Source: Aminivibrio pyruvatiphilus (lineage in GTDB: Bacteria > Synergistota > Synergistia > Synergistales > Aminobacteriaceae). Taken from it: a stretch of DNA of 64,000 nt. Position 1 is the first letter of the stretch, and each line of letters opens with the position of its first letter. Position numbers and translations under genes: made by a program. The stretch lies in contig NZ_SORI01000001.1 in the NCBI RefSeq assembly GCF_004366815.1, positions 248,001 to 312,000 on the forward strand, written 5' to 3'. Below, one piece after another: positions 17,079 to 46,277 of the stretch. The notes beneath the pieces were generated by a model. That model ran no database searches, was not told the DNA's origin, and was given only the letters and a program-made list of their open reading frames with translations.

Positions 17079-17684
17079 ATGGAAAAAAAGATCGCCCGGA
17101 TCACCCGTTGGCTCGACAGATGCGCAAAAGCATGCTCTGCCAGGTCGTGGCAGAGCGCCCTGCTTGACATGGAATGCGCCAAGGCAGAACTTGACGAAGC
17201 CCGGAGCGAACTTTGGGCCAGGGCCGAGGGAGGTTCCCAGGCTTCTCCCGTGATACGCAAGGCGGGGCGGTTGACATTGACTGCGGCGCTGGGGCTTTTT
17301 CTCGTCCTTTCGGTTGCCGGGCCCCTGGCAGTCCAGACAGCCAGGGAGGCGGTGTCCATCGCTTCAGGCCCCTCCCTGGAGTGGGTGTCCACCGATGAAA
17401 AGGCCCTTCTTTCAGCTCTCCGGCGGAGCCTGAGCGACGCAAACCTGGCCCGTCTTTCCGCGGAACCGGGAGATAAAATCAAGCATCGGGAACCAGCAAT
17501 AACAGCTGCCGCAAGGCCTTCGGACAACAGGAGAAATCTGTCCGTCCTCCAGGGGCGGGAAAATGAAAACCTGCAGAATGGCTCCTCTTCCGGCAGGGAA
17601 TTTGATACAATAATCACTCTGGTGCAGATCGGGCAGAAGGCGCTTCGGGAAAGAGAGTCCGCGATTCGTTTCGATGCCCCGTAA
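17079..17684 (+). CDS. Single-span membrane protein, possible anti-sigma factor
   Basis: 201 residues; ATG 17079 follows GGGGGGAACTGACAG. A cytoplasmic helical N-terminus (about 1-62, charged, with Cys16 and Cys20) precedes one hydrophobic segment (about 66-90). The C-terminal ~110 residues would be periplasmic and polar. No family is recognised. The position 53 bases after a sigma-factor gene, the single span and the helical cytoplasmic part suggest an anti-sigma role, which is inference only. It is followed by bamA after 38 bases. Confidence 0.7.
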   Translation: MEKKIARITRWLDRCAKACSARSWQSALLDMECAKAELDEARSELWARAEGGSQASPVIRKAGRLTLTAALGLFLVLSVAGPLAVQTAREAVSIASGPSLEWVSTDEKALLSALRRSLSDANLARLSAEPGDKIKHREPAITAAARPSDNRRNLSVLQGRENENLQNGSSSGREFDTIITLVQIGQKALRERESAIRFDAP

Positions 17685-17722: not shown

Positions 17723-19480
17723 GTGAATGAACATCTGAAAAAAACGTGGCGGATCCTGCTGTTCCTCTTTGTGGTGCTCCTGCTGCCGAATGTTGCTGCA
17801 TCCGCTGCAGAACCGCTGGTTTCTGCCCTTGGCGTGGACGGAAACGACCACGTGGTGGCGGAACATATCCTCGGGGTCGTGGGAACCCGGGTAGGGGAAC
17901 CCCTGAGCAGGGAGCAGCTCCAGTCCGACGTGGAGGCCATTTACAATCTCGGTTTCTTCTCCTTCGTGGACATCAACCTGCAGAGCATAGCGGGCGGAAT
18001 CGGCGTAACCTACATCGTCAGGGAGAACCCGGTGGTCGAACAGATCACCTTTTCCGGCAACAACATCTACAAGGACGAGGATCTCCTGAAGGTCGTTTTC
18101 ACCATGCCCGGCACGGTTTTCAACAGGGTCTTCTTCCGGAACGACCTTGACCGGATCCAGGAGAAATACCACAAGGACGGCTACGTCATGGTCAAGATCG
18201 CCGACGTTGTCGTCGAAGGCGGCCTTATCGACGTGAAGATCGTGGAGCCGAAGGTCGGTAACATCATAATCCAGGGAAACAGGAAAACGAAAACGAAGGT
18301 CATTGCCCGGGAGATCAAGCTGAAGAAGGGGGATCCCTTCAACACTACAATCCTTAGGCATTCTCTGAACAAACTCCAGAACAAAGGTTTTTTCGATGAC
18401 GTTAGTATCGGTTTTGAACCGGGTGAGAATGAAGAAGAGACCGATATCATTCTAACGGTCTCGGAACAAAAAACTGGACGAGTTGGTCTTTCAATCAGTC
18501 ATGGAACAGAAAGCGGCTGGTCGGGCGGCTTGGCTTACACGGATTCAAACTGGAAAGGGCTGGGGCATATTGCGGAAGTGGGTTTTGAAATGGGAGATAA
18601 CGAACAGTATTGGATTTCCTATGCTGAGCCATACATGGACTCGCAGAATTTTGCCTGGAAAATAGGTTTCTCTAAACGAAAATGGGAAGACCGATACTAT
18701 TATCGCCGCGGAGTGAAGCAGCTAAAATATGACGATGATGTCAAAAATATCTACCTCGGAGCGGGGAGAAAATTCGGCCGGGATGAAAAATTCAGTTGGT
18801 TCCTTACTCTGGATTGGAAAGACGTAGACGCTTTTAATTTCAGAGAAAGAATCCACCCAGGGATCGAAGATGAACTGACGAGGGGAAAAATTTTTGCTCT
18901 CATCGGAACTGTATCCAGAAACAACACCGATCCGTACCTTAGCTATTCTAAGGGGGATATCATTGATTTTAATATTGAACAAGCTCTTGAGGCGCTCGGA
19001 GGGGAGTACAGCTACACAAAATATTGGCTCCAGGCCAGGTACTATACTCCAGTAAAGGGGCTTGGTGATCTTTTCGACAGGCAATTCGGTGACGAGGACA
19101 ATCCTGCCATTTTTGCGGCCCGGATAAGGGCAGGCTTCTCGTCTGGTGATGTTCCTACAGCAAGCCTCTATTCTCTTGGTGGTTCAAGTACGTTAAGAGG
19201 CTATGACTCAGGATATTTTCTTGGGAGTGAGATGTTTCTCGCAAACTTCGAATTACGTATTCCAATCGAAAAGGCCTTTAGCTTTGTTTTATTCTATGAT
19301 GCAGGAAATGCATGGAAAAATCCTTGGGACACAAATGGTGGTTCGTTTAGTCTTTCAGATCTCCATGATTCATGGGGAGTGGGTGTCAGGGTCAAGACTC
19401 CTTTGGGGAATTTTAGGCTTGACCATGCCACAGGTGAAGATGAATCTAGAACGCATTTTAGCTTCGGGGAAATGTTCTAG
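17723..19480 (+). CDS. bamA: BamA/Omp85 outer-membrane barrel assembly protein
   Basis: 585 residues, shorter than the ~800 of enteric BamA. A signal peptide (about 1-28) precedes roughly three POTRA domains (to about 255; E. coli has five). The C-terminal barrel includes the conserved STLRGYDSG motif and ends in a typical aromatic residue (GEMF). BamA inserts beta-barrel proteins into the outer membrane. Base composition changes sharply near 18345: the first ~620 bases are near 65% G+C, while the rest is near 45%. The following genes return to high G+C. Confidence 0.94.
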   Translation: MNEHLKKTWRILLFLFVVLLLPNVAASAAEPLVSALGVDGNDHVVAEHILGVVGTRVGEPLSREQLQSDVEAIYNLGFFSFVDINLQSIAGGIGVTYIVRENPVVEQITFSGNNIYKDEDLLKVVFTMPGTVFNRVFFRNDLDRIQEKYHKDGYVMVKIADVVVEGGLIDVKIVEPKVGNIIIQGNRKTKTKVIAREIKLKKGDPFNTTILRHSLNKLQNKGFFDDVSIGFEPGENEEETDIILTVSEQKTGRVGLSISHGTESGWSGGLAYTDSNWKGLGHIAEVGFEMGDNEQYWISYAEPYMDSQNFAWKIGFSKRKWEDRYYYRRGVKQLKYDDDVKNIYLGAGRKFGRDEKFSWFLTLDWKDVDAFNFRERIHPGIEDELTRGKIFALIGTVSRNNTDPYLSYSKGDIIDFNIEQALEALGGEYSYTKYWLQARYYTPVKGLGDLFDRQFGDEDNPAIFAARIRAGFSSGDVPTASLYSLGGSSTLRGYDSGYFLGSEMFLANFELRIPIEKAFSFVLFYDAGNAWKNPWDTNGGSFSLSDLHDSWGVGVRVKTPLGNFRLDHATGEDESRTHFSFGEMF

Positions 19481-19501
19481 GGGAGCGGAGGGCGGAACGC
19501 G

Positions 19502-20776
19502 GTGTCCCCGACAGGGACAGTAATCGGAAACAGCAGAATTTTCATGAGGGCTGTGGCGGTGCTGATCCTCGCCGCAGCCCTCCTTTTTCCGGGGCCGGCC
19601 AAGGCGTCCGTCGTCATTGAAGGAGCCCCCCCCTGGCTCAGGGAAAGGATGGAGCGGAGCGCCGCCTCGGTGTGGGCGGAAATCCGGCAGGGCGGCTCTG
19701 CCTCGGCGAATGACAGTCTCCGCCTGCTTTCTCTTGTAGCGGAGCGTGTTTTTGCAGGGTTTGATGTGGCGGATTCCTTTTACCGGGGAGAGAAGGCCGT
19801 TCTGCAACTCAGGCCCCAGGAAGGAACGGCACCCTGGAAGGTGGAGATCTTTACCCCCCAGCTGGCTTTTCCCGTGGACGGTTGGTTCCGGGAGGATGTT
19901 TCGGGACTCGGAGAAAAAATCGTAAGTCACCTGGGTCACCTTCCAGTGGATGCCCTTTCATGGGCTGACGGTTCCCTCAAAGAGCTCATCGACACGCTGT
20001 GTTCGCCCCGCCTCCCCGGCTGGAGCGCCTCCCTGCTTGTGAGGCTCGAAAAGGAGGGGCCCATCCTCAGGGTATCCTTTGTTCCCAAGCCCCCCTTTGT
20101 CCTGGCCGTGGTTCCCAGGGTCTCATCGGATACCCTTCCGGTGATGCTCCGGTCCGACCTGAACGAAAACATCCTGCGCACCCTTTCTCCGGTGGTGGGG
20201 CTGCCCATCGAATGGGTCTCCGTCCACAGGGGCAAGGTGGAAGAAATGGCCGCCGGATCGCTCCGGCAGACGAATATCGTGGGGAACACCCGGTCGGCGG
20301 TGGAGGTTTCCTTCAAGGCTGCCCAGATTGCCGCAGCCGACGCCTTCGTGGACAGTCCGAAGTACTCAGTCCGGGCCTGGGTGGCCGCCTATGCCGGATC
20401 CGACACGAAATATCCGGAGATCGGTCTCCACATGGGCCGGAAATTTCTCCCCGTATCGGGATGGGACATGGAGTTGTACGGCGAATGGATCCTGTCCGCC
20501 AATGATTTTTCCCTCGAAAGCCGGTGGGGAATCCGCTGGAGTCCCTGGAAAAATATCCTTGCCGGCGTTGAACGAGCTTTCCCCGGGAACGTCACCTGGT
20601 ACCGGATCTGGATTGAAGGCGGCGTTCGGGCTCCCTATCTCTGGTGGCGAATCAGCGAAGACGGAGATCATCACGTGGGTGCGGGGTACAGGCTGAATCA
20701 GCGGATTTCACTGGAAATTCACTATGATGGCCGTGACGAGGACAAGGTCAGCATCAGGGCGCTGAGCGACCTCTGA
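19502..20776 (+). CDS. Unknown exported, beta-rich protein between bamA and lpxD
   Basis: 424 residues from GTG 19502 with GGAGGG upstream. An in-frame ATG at 19544 starts exactly at a signal peptide ([21 protein letters not shown]) but lacks a ribosome-binding site. No family is recognised. The middle (about 40-270) is mixed alpha/beta. The last ~130 residues alternate polar and hydrophobic or aromatic residues ([34 protein letters not shown]) as in transmembrane or periplasmic beta strands. In many diderms the chaperone gene skp/ompH sits here, but this protein is far larger and not Skp-like. lpxD follows after 29 bases. Confidence 0.8.
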
Positions 20777-39796: not shown

Positions 39797-40284
39797 GTGG
39801 AACCTTTCGAAGAACTGGGCTTGTCACAATGGTCACTGTTCATGCCTCTGGTATCTGATATAGCCCATCAGCACCCCTATGCCGACGGTGCTTCCATTGG
39901 CGACGCTTCCCCAGGGACTTCCGGATCTTTGCCGCATCTGTTGCAAGAATGGACGGCGGAGGAGTAATCCCGAACCTCGGCAGTGCAGTTCTGCTTCCTG
40001 AAGTGTTTCTCAAGGCCCTGTCTATAGCCCGGAACCTGGGAAACAACTTCAGAAACATTATTACGGCCAATATGGACATGATCCAGCATTACCGGCCCCT
40101 GACCGACGTTGTGACCCGTCCGGTCATTTCTGGAGGACAGGGATACTTATTTTCGGGTCATCACGAAATCATGATTCTCCTCCTTGCGGCCGCTGTTTGC
40201 GAGGAAGCATTTTGTGAAGAGATGAGCCCCGTATTCCGGGGGTCCGGGATGATTCTTTCCTCGGAAAGGAAACTGAACAAATGA
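39797..40284 (+). pseudogene. Frameshifted gene upstream of hldE, family unknown
   Basis: A strong ribosome-binding site (AAGGAGGG, 39780-39787) and GTG 39797 open a frame (EPFEELGLSQWSLFMPLV...) that ends at a TAA at 39965. A second frame, shifted by one base near the CCCC run at about 39913, continues with FRIFAASVARMDGGGV to a TGA at 40282 that overlaps the hldE start. Joined, they give about 162 residues that read as one protein, including SGGQGYLFSGHHEIM. The simplest reading is a single-base deletion in a recently active gene; a sequencing error or programmed -1 shift is possible. Function unknown. Confidence 0.6.
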
Positions 40285-41711
40285 TGCAGAATCCTGAAAG
40301 GTTCAAAAACCTCAACATCCTTGTCCTCGGGGATGTGATGCTTGACCGGTATGTTTCAGGGGATGTTCTCAGGGTCTCCCCGGAGGCTCCGGTCCCGGTC
40401 CTGTCGGTTCGGAGCAGAAGGGAAGTGCTTGGTGGTGCGGGGAACGTGGCTGCCAACCTTGCCGCCCTGGGATGTTCAGTGAATCTGCTGGGTGCCTTAG
40501 GTAATGACTATGAGGGAAAGAGGATAACGAAACTGCTTGATGAAAAGGGAATCAGGAACTACCTTGTCGAGACAGATGACCGGCCGACAACCACAAAAAC
40601 GAGGATTATCGGAGGAAACCAACAGATAGTCCGGTTTGATGAAGAAACAGCCGAAGTCGTTTCTCCGGGTACAGAAGAGAGGATTTCCGCGGCAATGCTC
40701 CGTTTGCTCGAGTCTGCTAATGGTGTTCTGCTCTCCGATTACGGCAAAGGAGTGCTGAAAGGAAACCTGTGCAAAACTGTGATATCCGGGGCTCTTCGAC
40801 GGGGGGTGCCGGTTTTTGTCGATCCAAAGGGCCGTGACTGGGAACGATATCGCGGTGCGACGTGCGTCACCCCCAACGAAGCGGAGTTCTTTGCTGTTTC
40901 CGGAGAATCAACTGACGAACGTGGAGATTTTTCGCGGAATGCCCTGGAAATAAAAAGCAGGTTTGATATTAATAATTTGCTCGTCACCAGGGGCGCGAAA
41001 GGAATCGCCTTTTTCCCGGAGGAGGGGGATCCCTGTTTTGCTCCCGCCCCCAGGGTTAGGGAAGTATACGACGTCTCGGGAGCAGGCGACACGGTTGTTG
41101 CGGTTCTCGCGGCATCAGTGGTTTCAGGATATTCCTGGGACTATGGAGTATCTCTCGCCAACAGGGCGGCGGGAATCGTCATAACACGGGCGGGTACTTC
41201 ACCTGTGTCTATTGAAGATTTGTCCGGTCCGGCAGATGAGGACACGAAGATTTGTACCTGGGCTGAAGCTGAAAGAAGGGTAGCGCTCTGGAAAAAGAAC
41301 GGGGCTTCCGTTGTTTTTACGAACGGGTGTTTCGATCTTCTTCATCCTGGTCATATAAAGGTGCTTCGCCAGGCCGCACAGGAAGGTGACAGGCTCGTTG
41401 TCGGGCTGAACTCCGACGCGTCGATACGCCGCCTCAAGGGACCTGACCGCCCGGTTCTCCCCCAGGCTGACCGTGCCTCCATTCTGGCTGCCCTTGATTG
41501 CGTGGATCTTGTTGTTGTGTTCGATGAAGATACACCAGAGAAATTAATTCGTGCCCTTATACCCTCCGTTCTTGTCAAAGGAGGAGACTACACCCCGGAA
41601 AGCGTCGTAGGAAGGCAAATTGTCGAAGAGGGGGGCGGCAGAGTTGTTATCGTTCCCCTGATGGAAGGAAAAAGCACGTCCAAAATTCTCCTATCCTTTA
41701 AGAAACGGTGA
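40281..41711 (+). CDS. hldE: HldE, bifunctional heptose kinase/adenylyltransferase
   Basis: 476 residues. The N-terminal ribokinase-fold domain (about 1-315) has GGAGNVAANLAALG and the catalytic VSGAGDTVVAVLA. The C-terminal nucleotidyltransferase domain (about 340-476) has FTNGCFDLLHPGHIKVLRQA. It makes ADP-heptose for the LPS core. Partner genes gmhA, gmhB and hldD are absent from the window. From here to about 46277 the DNA is more A+T rich than upstream. Confidence 0.95.
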   Translation: MMQNPERFKNLNILVLGDVMLDRYVSGDVLRVSPEAPVPVLSVRSRREVLGGAGNVAANLAALGCSVNLLGALGNDYEGKRITKLLDEKGIRNYLVETDDRPTTTKTRIIGGNQQIVRFDEETAEVVSPGTEERISAAMLRLLESANGVLLSDYGKGVLKGNLCKTVISGALRRGVPVFVDPKGRDWERYRGATCVTPNEAEFFAVSGESTDERGDFSRNALEIKSRFDINNLLVTRGAKGIAFFPEEGDPCFAPAPRVREVYDVSGAGDTVVAVLAASVVSGYSWDYGVSLANRAAGIVITRAGTSPVSIEDLSGPADEDTKICTWAEAERRVALWKKNGASVVFTNGCFDLLHPGHIKVLRQAAQEGDRLVVGLNSDASIRRLKGPDRPVLPQADRASILAALDCVDLVVVFDEDTPEKLIRALIPSVLVKGGDYTPESVVGRQIVEEGGGRVVIVPLMEGKSTSKILLSFKKR

Positions 41712-41754
41712 AAGCGGCTTGGATAAAATATCCTCCGACGGGAGTGAATCAAGG

Positions 41755-42774
41755 GTGAAAATCATCCATATCCTTCCAGAACTCGAGGAAGGAGGAGTCG
41801 AACGCCATGTTCTCTGGCTGACGGAAGAACTTTCCTTCCGGGGACATGATGTGACCGTTATTTCGTCCGGAGGGAAAATGGTTTCCCGGCTGGCATCGGG
41901 AGTGAATCACCTTGCCTTGCCGGTGGACGTAAAAAATCCGCTGACGGCTTTCTTCTGCGCGAGGAAGATAGCACGCTTAGCGGCAAGGGAGAATGTTCAG
42001 CTTCTTCATGCCCATTCGAGAGTCCCGGCGTGGGTAGCTTACTGGGCATCGAGGATGGCTAAAATTCCTTTTGTAGTCACTGCTCACGGCGTATTCAGCA
42101 ATAAGACGGCATGGATTTATCGTCCCTACAGGAAAGCTGAAAGGGTGATCTGTGTCAGTTCTGCTGTGAAAAGAACCATGGAGCCATGTTTCGGTAATAA
42201 TACAACAGTTATTCTCAACGGAATGCCGGAGAAGGACCTTTCATGGAAGGGTTCCAAGGATGGAATGTTCCGCTTTCTCTTTATCGGTCGCCTTTCTCCC
42301 GTAAAGGGGATTCAGGATATAGTGGAGATTCTTCCTCTGCTGCAAGGCGACTGGACGCTTGACGTAGTGGGAAACGGCCCGCTTTTCAGCACACTATCGG
42401 CGAAAATAAAAGAACTTGCTCTGAACGATCGGGTTTTCCTCCATGGTTTCCGGGATGATACGGACCGCTGGCTTTCGGAGTGCTCTTGCCTGCTTTTTCC
42501 CTCCTACACGGAAGGGATGCCCCTGACACTGGCCAGGGCGGTCCAGATGGGTGTGCCTGTACTTGCTTCATCCATCCCCCCTGTCATCGAGATGGCTGAA
42601 ACTGAAGAAGGATTATTGCCGCCGGGGGAAAAAGATCTTTGGAGAAGGGCGTTACAGGGGGTACTGGAGGGAAATAAAAGTTTCCCCCGCTTCTCTTCGG
42701 AGAAAATCCCTACGATCAAAAAAATGACTGACGAAGTTGAAGCAGTGTATGCCGAGGTGTCTTGCAGCAGGTGA
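41755..42774 (+). CDS. GT4 family glycosyltransferase (core/O-antigen)
   Basis: Predicted 339 residues from GTG 41755, ten bases after GGGAG; an in-frame TTG at 41719 (351 residues) is an alternative. GT-B fold: the N-terminal IIHILPELEEGGVERHVLWL and C-terminal FIGRLSPVKGIQDIVEILP and FPSYTEGMPLTLARAVQMGVP (donor-binding) are visible. It probably adds a sugar to the LPS core at the cytoplasmic face. Donor and acceptor cannot be set from sequence. It follows hldE closely. Confidence 0.85.
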   Translation: MKIIHILPELEEGGVERHVLWLTEELSFRGHDVTVISSGGKMVSRLASGVNHLALPVDVKNPLTAFFCARKIARLAARENVQLLHAHSRVPAWVAYWASRMAKIPFVVTAHGVFSNKTAWIYRPYRKAERVICVSSAVKRTMEPCFGNNTTVILNGMPEKDLSWKGSKDGMFRFLFIGRLSPVKGIQDIVEILPLLQGDWTLDVVGNGPLFSTLSAKIKELALNDRVFLHGFRDDTDRWLSECSCLLFPSYTEGMPLTLARAVQMGVPVLASSIPPVIEMAETEEGLLPPGEKDLWRRALQGVLEGNKSFPRFSSEKIPTIKKMTDEVEAVYAEVSCSR

Positions 42775-42831
42775 AATCGCGGAATAACCGTGTCGCAAGA
42801 AGACAAGTCGAAGGAGAGAGGAGTAAGCCGT

Positions 42832-43920
42832 TTGAAGGTGCTCCATTACGTTAACGAATCCGTTCTTTCCTGGTCGGTTCCCTTCCTTCAGCTCTTGAGG
42901 GCCCTTGAGGACAAAAGTATAAACAATGTCGTGCTTTGTTCTCCCGGGGGAAGATTATCGAATGAAGTTGAAAAAATCGGAGTGGAGTGTGTTGTTGCCA
43001 AAGCCCTCTTTCCGTGGTGTCCCCGTTTGTGTAAGAAAATTGGAAAGATAATTGGTGACGTCCAGCCTGACATTATCGTCACCCGTCTTTCGTCCGCTGC
43101 CCTTATCGGCGGGTATTGGGGCAAAAGACTAGGAATCCCCGTAATAGGTGCTCTCGACAAGTTCTCTAAACCCAGGTATTATCGTCACGTTCAAACTGTG
43201 CTGGCAGTGTCGTCATTGTTGGCATCATTTGCGAAGAATGCCGGAATGCCTGATGTGGTTGCAATACCGAACGGAATCGAAACGAACTTCTACCGGCCAC
43301 CGGAATCCCATGAAGCGAAAAATCGTCTTCGGGAACAATGGTCCGTCGGCAGTGATGAAAGAATTGTCCTTGCCGCTGGGCGTTTCGTGGAATGGAAAGG
43401 ATTCGATGTTCTCCTGAACGCCTTTGCTAATGTACATAGGCGTTTCCTTTCTTCTGGGAAGGATTTTCCGGTCCGACTTTTTCTTGCGGGGGACGGGGAA
43501 GAAAAAGACAACTATAGAAATTTAGTAAAAAGCTTGGGTATCGAAAATCTCGTTATATTTCCCGGTTTTGTCAGGGATATACGTCCGTTTCTTCAAATGT
43601 CGGATATTTTTGTCCTTCCGTCAAAAGAACCGGAGCCCTTCGGTTTGGTTCTCCTGGAAGCGATGGCTGCTGGAAAACCGTCTATTGCCACCTCCTGCGG
43701 CGGACCTCAGGATATGATAGAACACGGCCGAAACGGATGGTTGGTACCCTGCAACGAAAAGGATGCTCTTGCTGATGCTTTATCTGAAGCCCTTCTTTCT
43801 TCTGATCTTCTCTCCATCGGCGAACGGGCAATGTCCAAGGCTTCTGAATTCGATGTCACCCGTGTTGCTGAGCGGCTACTTTGCCTTTTTGAAAATATGA
43901 TTTTGAATTATCCGAAATAG
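42832..43920 (+). CDS. GT4 family glycosyltransferase (core/O-antigen)
   Basis: Predicted 362 residues from TTG 42832, eight bases after AGAGGAG and giving the typical KVLHYVNES start; an in-frame GTG at 42790 is the alternative. Motifs include AAGRFVEWKGFDVLLNAFA, LFLAGDGEE and SKEPEPFGLVLLEAMAAG with the EX7E-type donor site. Acts on lipid-linked or LPS sugars; substrate unknown. Base composition is A+T rich like its neighbours. Confidence 0.85.
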   Translation: MKVLHYVNESVLSWSVPFLQLLRALEDKSINNVVLCSPGGRLSNEVEKIGVECVVAKALFPWCPRLCKKIGKIIGDVQPDIIVTRLSSAALIGGYWGKRLGIPVIGALDKFSKPRYYRHVQTVLAVSSLLASFAKNAGMPDVVAIPNGIETNFYRPPESHEAKNRLREQWSVGSDERIVLAAGRFVEWKGFDVLLNAFANVHRRFLSSGKDFPVRLFLAGDGEEKDNYRNLVKSLGIENLVIFPGFVRDIRPFLQMSDIFVLPSKEPEPFGLVLLEAMAAGKPSIATSCGGPQDMIEHGRNGWLVPCNEKDALADALSEALLSSDLLSIGERAMSKASEFDVTRVAERLLCLFENMILNYPK

Positions 43921-44034
43921 TTTTCCTCCTGTGTTTTGCCGCGGGATACTGACTGGCCTTCTTGGCCAGCAATTCCCAGCAATAATAGGTTCCGATGCAT
44001 GTTCAGAAGAAGTTTACGGAAGGTCGGTTTTATT

Positions 44035-45264
44035 ATGAACTTCAGGATTTTCAAGCCGGATTTCTGGCAATCGGTCACCCTGGTGGAATTCGGTTTTCTA
44101 TGGTCGGTGTTGTTTGCGGTCTGGGGTCCTGTTCCCAGGTATCTTGGGTGGCTTCTGGCCATTATCGGCCTCCTTTCCGGGAAGCTCCGGGGAAATGGGC
44201 GGACAGGTGTGCTTCATCCTTTCCTGAAGGCGGGGTTGTTGTTTGTTCTTCTTTGGGGGCTGCCGTCCAGCTTTTTCAGAAAACCGGACTTATTTACTTT
44301 TTTGAAGGGGTATTCTTTAGCCTTGGAGTTTGCTTTTTCCCTGTGGCTTGCTGCAAGAGTCTTTTCAAAAGAATCTCTGCAGAGATTCTGGGTCGTTCTT
44401 TCCGCTTCGGTCGTTCTTGCCATCATTCAGACACTTTACGCTTTCTTCTTTGAGAATCATTTTGCCGGACTCTTCAGCAACATCAATACGCTTGGATTTT
44501 ACGGGGTTATTCTGCTCCCCCTCTTTCTTTCAAGGACTTTCGAGAAAGGAAGCGTAATATCGTGGCTGGTTTCGGCAGGTATTCTGTTCGTTATCTGCTT
44601 AAGTTCCAGCTCGTCTGCCTGGATTGCGGGAGCGTTCAGCCTTGTCCTTCTTTCGATAATGGGGGGGGCGAAGTATCTTTTCAAGATGTTTTTTCTTTTT
44701 TCCCTCTTTGCTGTTATCTTTGCCGGTGTATGGGGCGGCCTGGAAAGATTAAATCCGGAACTGAAGCAGACTTTTGCCAGATACATGGACCGTGAACTGG
44801 AACAGCTTCTTTCTTTTGGGAATCCGTCAAAATTCACGACAAACCGGTCGTTCATATGGCAGGGAGCGGCTAATCTTATCGAAAAATACCCCCTTTCCGG
44901 CTGGGGATGGGGGGCTTTTAACGATCCTTTCGCCAAAATAAACAGTTCCTGGTGGGATGTGAAGAAAACCCGCCTGAGAGCCCAGAATGTTGATGATGCC
45001 CACAATATGTACCTGAATCTGTCCGTTTACGGCGGAATCCCGACAACTTTGTCTGTGCTTGCTCTATTTCTGTTTTCCGCATATAGGGCTTATGTATTTT
45101 CCAGAAAAAAAGCAGGGGATCAGTGGTTCTGGATTGCAGTATCCGCGTCAATTTTATCCATTCTCTTTTATAGCCTTGCAGGAGATGTTTTTTCCATACG
45201 ATATAAATTCGCCTGTATCTTCTGGTACTACATGGGTTTTGCCGGAAGATCGGATGTGGAGTGA
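44035..45264 (+). CDS. O-antigen ligase/polymerase-like membrane protein
   Basis: About 409 residues from ATG 44035 (GGAAGG eleven bases upstream); ATG 43999 and TTG 43936 in frame are alternatives. Around ten to twelve hydrophobic segments and a large periplasmic loop (about 240-330) fit the Wzy_C/WaaL superfamily. The loop carries NRSFIWQGAANLIEKYPLSG and WGWGAFNDPF, with the conserved Arg and a later His (DDAHNMYLNL) typical of ligases. WaaL transfers O-antigen to lipid A core; Wzy polymerises. I cannot separate the two here. Confidence 0.82.
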   Translation: MNFRIFKPDFWQSVTLVEFGFLWSVLFAVWGPVPRYLGWLLAIIGLLSGKLRGNGRTGVLHPFLKAGLLFVLLWGLPSSFFRKPDLFTFLKGYSLALEFAFSLWLAARVFSKESLQRFWVVLSASVVLAIIQTLYAFFFENHFAGLFSNINTLGFYGVILLPLFLSRTFEKGSVISWLVSAGILFVICLSSSSSAWIAGAFSLVLLSIMGGAKYLFKMFFLFSLFAVIFAGVWGGLERLNPELKQTFARYMDRELEQLLSFGNPSKFTTNRSFIWQGAANLIEKYPLSGWGWGAFNDPFAKINSSWWDVKKTRLRAQNVDDAHNMYLNLSVYGGIPTTLSVLALFLFSAYRAYVFSRKKAGDQWFWIAVSASILSILFYSLAGDVFSIRYKFACIFWYYMGFAGRSDVE

Positions 45265-46277
45265 TTCCCATGCTGTTCTCGCAACCGTACCTTGCGCTCC
45301 TTGGGAAGGGAGAAGGGGAGAAAATCCTCTTCATCCGCTACAGTGCCCTGGGAGACATCCTTATCGCGACTCCTTTCGCAAGGGCCTTGAAAGAGAGATA
45401 CCCCAAGTCTGAATTGATATGGCTTGCGGCCTGCCCTTATGAGCGGATTCTCGAGGGACAGCCCTATATAGACGGGATCTTGCCCTGGGACAGAAGGCTG
45501 GACAATAAGGCTTTTTTTCAGCTTCTCCGCAGAATAAGAACAATGCGCTTCACCAGGATTGTTTCTCTCCAGGCCACGGACAGGGGAGCGTTGATGGCTC
45601 TCTTTTCCGGTGTTCCCCAGCGTTTTTGCACGGCCGGAAAATGGGAGTTTCTTTATAACGGAGGGAAATCATCGTCCTTCTGGGAAACGTATGACATTCC
45701 CGTCCCTGAGGGTCCGGGGAGCGGTTTTGTAACTACCGAAAAAATGATAAAAAGTGCCTCGGATATTCTTGGGGAAGTTAAACCTCCTTTTTTGCTTGCC
45801 GCCATAGGGGCGAGCAAGGAAGTAAAACAGTGGCCTGCACGGAATTGGGTTGAGTTTTGCAGAAATGCCTGTGACAATGGAATTCCTGTGGTTCTTGCCG
45901 GAGACGGGGCCGAAGAACTGGAGAAAGCGGAGGAAATCTGCGGATCTGTCTCCAGCGATCTTCTGTACGACCTTGTGGGGCGGATTCCTCTTTCCGTTCT
46001 CGGAGGCGTTGTGGGGATGGCATCTCTCGTCCTTGCGGGCGATACAGGGATTCTCAACATGGCACGGATCATGGGCGTTCCCTCCATGGCTCTTCTGGGG
46101 CCGACTCCTCTTCCAGTCGGCGTCGGCCTTATGGATCCGGAACAGGTTTTCAGCGCCGATTGCAGTTATCTTGGGTGCGGTAAAAACCATTGCAGGAAAG
46201 CCTGCCTTGAATCCGTTGAAGCTGAAAATGTATTTCAGGCAGTCGCCACGGCATGGAAAAGCAAATTTTCTCAGTAA
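45261..46277 (+). CDS. GT9 family heptosyltransferase-like protein
   Basis: 338 residues from GTG 45261, overlapping the previous stop. GT9 signatures: ILFIRYSALGDILIATPFARAL, AAIGASKEVKQWPARNWVEF, LAGDTGILNMARIMGVP (donor site) and LLGPTPL. It resembles WaaF/WaaC heptosyltransferases and fits with hldE five genes upstream. The exact acceptor is unknown. A C-terminal Cys cluster (SYLGCGKNHCRKACLE) is common in this family. Confidence 0.87.
   Translation: MIPMLFSQPYLALLGKGEGEKILFIRYSALGDILIATPFARALKERYPKSELIWLAACPYERILEGQPYIDGILPWDRRLDNKAFFQLLRRIRTMRFTRIVSLQATDRGALMALFSGVPQRFCTAGKWEFLYNGGKSSSFWETYDIPVPEGPGSGFVTTEKMIKSASDILGEVKPPFLLAAIGASKEVKQWPARNWVEFCRNACDNGIPVVLAGDGAEELEKAEEICGSVSSDLLYDLVGRIPLSVLGGVVGMASLVLAGDTGILNMARIMGVPSMALLGPTPLPVGVGLMDPEQVFSADCSYLGCGKNHCRKACLESVEAENVFQAVATAWKSKFSQ

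Follow-up and report, generated by a model that had tools for sequence, protein, structure and literature searches.

BamA is essential, and it is commonly regarded as a vertically inherited marker for the diderm cell envelope and as a stable target for antibiotics. Recombination at its gene is already known from Legionella and Treponema pallidum. In Legionella pneumophila, bamA is a hotspot of homologous recombination, as are other outer-membrane and lipopolysaccharide genes, and selection at the cell surface has been proposed (PMC5507463). In T. pallidum, variation in BamA is confined to the barrel, and mosaic outer-membrane protein profiles have been explained by recombination (PMC6016234). 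Polymorphism in the surface loops of BamA governs sensitivity to CdiA-EC93 and to lectin-like bacteriocins, making receptor use of this kind a plausible selective force for barrel exchange (PMC5371414, PMC6240691). Here, we describe a bamA gene of Aminivibrio pyruvatiphilus (Synergistota) in which the proposed exchange is more diverged and more complete than in these cases. The locus resembles that of Legionella in that bamA sequence would have been replaced by homologous recombination, but exchange there is mostly within one species, whereas the pieces compared here are saturated at synonymous sites, differ in G+C and comprise the barrel part only (PMC5507463). With T. pallidum it shares barrel-limited variation and mosaicism through recombination; the treponemal strains, however, differ by few substitutions, which lie mostly in loops, whereas here the whole barrel, strands included, varies across species (PMC6016234). 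Unlike the bacteriocin and CdiA cases, the locus yielded no such toxin or receptor use, and the loops of two of the species compared below, G000 and G002, hardly differ. The open-access literature that we searched held no report of whole-barrel BamA exchange between species, which is not proof of absence.

The window, the whole stretch of DNA analysed, spans 64,000 nucleotides of the source genome (G000), a 3.35-Mb draft in 62 contigs; gene rankings given below cover its contig C1 only. The features that matter here are as follows.

17723..19480, + strand: bamA, encoding 585 aa with three POTRA domains and an Omp85 barrel, a C-terminal F and an LRGY motif in the L6 region
17723..18328, + strand: native part, comprising the signal peptide, POTRA 1, POTRA 2 and the first half of POTRA 3, with GC3 of 0.79 and codon use like that of the host
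18317..18386, + strand: left joint zone, at the conserved POTRA 3 motif KGDPFN..ILRHSLNKLQNKGFF, from the 2-unit support intervals of three fits and the alignment
18329..19457, + strand: tract read as replaced, comprising the latter half of POTRA 3 and almost all of the barrel; GC3 0.42, saturation at synonymous sites against each sibling, codon misfit -0.35
19364..19550, + strand: right joint zone, round the bamA stop codon and the short gap before orf424, from 2-unit support intervals
19502..20773, + strand: orf424, native flank between bamA and lpxD, kept across Synergistota, with no family match

The open frame carries the POTRA and Omp85 build, on the strand and at the coordinates that an earlier note on this DNA gave for bamA. 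PF01103 (Omp85) matches residues 276-583 (E 6.6e-37), PF07244 (POTRA) matches three stretches ahead of the barrel, and the top hits in the PDB are proteins of the BamA type; proteobacterial BamA, in comparison, has five POTRA domains. The curated BamA equivalog TIGR03303 scores 245.9 bits, below its cut-off of 297.15, probably because its profile (741 positions) was made for longer proteins. This is the sole Omp85 match in G000, and a recombining paralogue within the genome was rejected as a source of the barrel on that ground. Downstream, bamA adjoins the lpx genes, in the order orf424, lpxD, lpxC, fabZ, lpxA, kdsC and an lptF/G-type permease (names from sequence). The first of these, orf424, is present in most Synergistota genomes examined (53) and lacks any Pfam or NCBIfam match. 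Upstream, orf201 (17079-17681) lies beside bamA in many relatives, evolves fast and likewise has no family match. In another genome, of genus g16, a POTRA-like gene (G044:C20:18739-19458, within locus L111) stands directly upstream of bamA, sharing 39% identity with the N-terminal region of BamA.

The composition of bamA changes abruptly within the gene. GC3 per 50 codons runs 0.62, 0.82, 0.86, 0.82, 0.48, 0.44, 0.48, 0.44, 0.48, 0.40, 0.32, 0.50, with a drop from 0.82 (codons 151-200) to 0.48 (codons 201-250), low values (0.32-0.50) up to the end and a return to about 0.71 in orf424; the 5' part stands at 0.79 against 0.42-0.44 past about 18344, with recovery at the stop codon. A two-breakpoint fit left free over the neighbourhood places the tract at 18344-19457 (GC3 0.42 inside versus 0.74 outside, LLR 69.8), with support intervals of 18326-18386 on the left and 19445-19550 on the right. 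The earlier note had put the break at about 18345, within one codon of this fit, and in the third POTRA region, where the left joint zone indeed falls. Overall G+C is 55-56% before the step, 44.7% within the tract and 60.5% after it, in flanking genes of 59.5-62.8%, in keeping with the note's near 45% up to the stop and its G+C-rich next gene; its figure of about 65% for the 5' part was overstated. The different codon use that it described is also found: of 232 gene windows, none fits host codon usage as poorly as the barrel (about -0.35 versus a median of +0.35). After trimming of starts, the GC3 step inside bamA is the largest in any of 198 plausible C1 genes (LLR 35.1, runner-up 26.3), and several of the next-ranked steps are mis-called frames. 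Five genes that stood above bamA in the untrimmed ranking were false upstream extensions or wrong frames, and a genome-wide mosaic drawn from other large GC3 steps was accordingly rejected. The next-worst codon fit on C1 belongs to a lipopolysaccharide block at 40281-46274 of the window (HldE-like, two GT4 glycosyltransferases, O-antigen ligase, heptosyltransferase), another surface locus; this is no more than suggestive.

The step is not common to all close relatives. Within one genus, the three sibling species G000, G002 and G022 have barrel GC3 below that of their flanks (by -0.30, -0.17 and -0.13, respectively), and all others of 57 genomes lie between -0.06 and +0.13. The upper value is that of G039, a fourth congener with bamA; its unusually high barrel GC3 suggests that the codon use of barrels may also vary for other reasons. 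The step is missing in G039, G018, G026, G009, G014 and other genera, including g18, g14 and most of g9. Codon selection, acting through slow translation of the barrel or expression level, might make such a step without foreign DNA, and a weaker contrast of this kind does occur in some g9 genomes (G035: POTRA 0.76, barrel 0.59). Against it stand the relatives that lack the step and the TolC-like outer-membrane proteins of the same species, which show neither low GC3 (0.67-0.78) nor saturation (four-fold differences 0.14-0.46); nor would selection on codons produce the saturated divergence between siblings described below. We regard this explanation as extremely unlikely, agreeing with the note that codon selection alone is insufficient. 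The TolC-like proteins also led us to reject a wider surface-protein effect. One TolC-like gene (L153 on G000:C3 versus L152 on G002:C10) has a four-fold difference of 0.14 against 0.23 for the median gene and more than 0.35 for others, a hint of patchy exchange between G000 and G002. LptD (PF04453) went undetected in G000, G002, G022 and G039; since these genomes have lpx genes and the profile found LptD in just 2 of the 14 controls, they probably carry a divergent form.

Divergence at synonymous sites marks out the same part of the gene. Across the flanks (orf424 to lpxA), four-fold sites differ by 0.30 between G000 and G002, 0.26 between G000 and G022 and 0.31 between G002 and G022, and the corresponding barrel values are 0.65, 0.71 and 0.65 (z 8.0, 9.4 and 7.2). 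Differences of 65-71% amount to saturation, for which the model expectation is 0.69-0.75. Of thirteen other close pairs, 11 have |z| below 2 and the remaining two reach 2.6 and 3.2, so that no other close pair among the 57 Synergistota genomes has a comparable barrel excess; in G000, bamA is the most diverged orthologue against both siblings (rank 1 of 95 with G002, 1 of 21 with G022). Fits to synonymous differences return 18329-19457 for both G000-G002 (LLR 42.5) and G000-G022 (LLR 54.9), compared with 4-12.5 in six permutations of each series. One signal is the GC3 of G000 by itself and the other is synonymous difference between species, and their agreement on one 1.1-kb tract supports replacement by recombination. 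The joints are sharp and divergence differs on either side of them, the pattern by which intragenic homologous recombination is recognised. In the G002-G022 fit the left end lies further upstream, at 17921-18206, and the G002 tract may thus have its own left joint.

Protein divergence is less even. Between G000 and G022, POTRA is 94% identical, the barrel 69% and flanking genes 82-96%, whereas the barrels of G000 and G002 are 87% identical, about as their flanks give. Barrels usually diverge less than their flanks, the ratio of barrel to flank amino-acid divergence being about 0.4 for G002-G039 and G039-G018, but it is about 1.1 for G000-G002 and above 2 for pairs with G022. The flank-protein tree unites G000, G002 and G022 (100/100) with G039 next, and the POTRA tree also recovers the trio (92/90), with G000 and G022 together (99/93). 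The barrel tree instead places G022 outside its own genus, g1, and three others (g9, g18 and g14); forcing the trio together costs 22 log units (AU p 0.044) and forcing G000 with G022 costs 24 (AU p 0.033), both modest. Separate trees of the two parts, which the note had suggested, thus conflict for G022, and the G000 barrel protein stays with its genus (G002, G039), grouping with G002 (89/83) on a longer end branch (0.12 versus 0.034 for G002). The clearest phylogenetic misplacement is therefore that of the sibling G022, and the case for G000 consists of composition, synonymous saturation and the raised barrel/flank ratio.

The place of G000 within its genus and its long end branch are what would be expected if the gene had been inherited vertically, with mutation raised or codon selection relaxed in the barrel part only, and the nearly identical predicted loops of G000 and G002 fit as well. 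Such a history would require the synonymous rate to rise about fourfold between sharp limits, at codons 203-208 and the stop codon, a local rise unseen in other genera. It would also have to accommodate the G022 barrel, which is about as close to that of the outside genus g5 (61-62% identical) as the barrels of its congeners are to g5 (62-65%), unlike a mere long branch. We judge it very improbable. A single ancient import of an AT-rich barrel into the ancestor of the trio, ameliorating at different speeds and not replaced again in either G000 or G002, would account for the lowered barrel GC3 shared by all three siblings and seen in no other genome below -0.06, and for the sister relationship of the G000 and G002 barrel proteins. 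With the flank divergence and several AT-shifted ancestral compositions, however, a two-lineage amelioration model predicts a four-fold difference of 0.32-0.34 against the observed 0.65, and the G022 barrel is just 69-70% identical to the other two, leaving this history improbable.

We propose that the barrel was replaced by homologous recombination from a related, lower-G+C lineage of Synergistota, a reading that we hold to be very likely; because all three sibling pairs are saturated, barrels would have been replaced in at least two of G000, G002 and G022 since their split. In G000, a 1.1-kb stretch of bamA that starts midway through the last POTRA and ends near the stop codon would have been swapped for the matching piece of a donor. 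Identity for strand exchange would come, on the left, from the conserved second motif in POTRA 3 and, on the right, from the conserved 3' end. The barrel and last half-POTRA would move as one unit, so that BamA stays full-length. A closer AT-rich barrel, sought in 183 genomes of the class, was not found. Since the G000 barrel groups with its own genus, its source would be an AT-richer relative outside the sampled genomes; the earlier note's idea of a barrel from another lineage is supported as to replacement and, for G000, set aside as to a remote lineage.

The note had also invoked phage or colicin selection on surface loops. We assigned loops by hand from motifs and parity, an AlphaFold model from three sequences having given a pLDDT of 29.5. 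Between G000 and G022, the predicted loops are 59% identical and the rest of the barrel 73%, with identity lowest in L4 (26%) and L7 (56%, plus six gapped positions); the difference outside the loops points to exchange of whole barrels. Between G000 and G002, the predicted loops are 90% identical (L3 100%, L4 83%) and the rest 87%, so phage or colicin selection finds no direct support. A search for PF05860 (TPS/CdiA domain) gave no match anywhere, controls included, and is hence uninformative. Any selective advantage may lie in varying an essential protein that is exposed at the surface. A broader scheme, which we consider doubtful, would make the barrel a freely exchanged module across the genus: a pool of deeply diverged alleles, kept diverse by phages or contact toxins, would pass between species and between genera by way of a joint that recurs within the last POTRA, on a vertically inherited POTRA part.

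Thus, an essential surface machine seems to have been exchanged piecewise between lineages, with the siblings G002 and G022 carrying other divergent barrels. Natural exchange of a whole barrel between lineages, with a joint tolerated in the last POTRA, would mean that barrel and POTRA are separable modules. It would caution against the use of full-length BamA in species trees, and it raises the possibility of a pressure from surface recognition in Synergistota.
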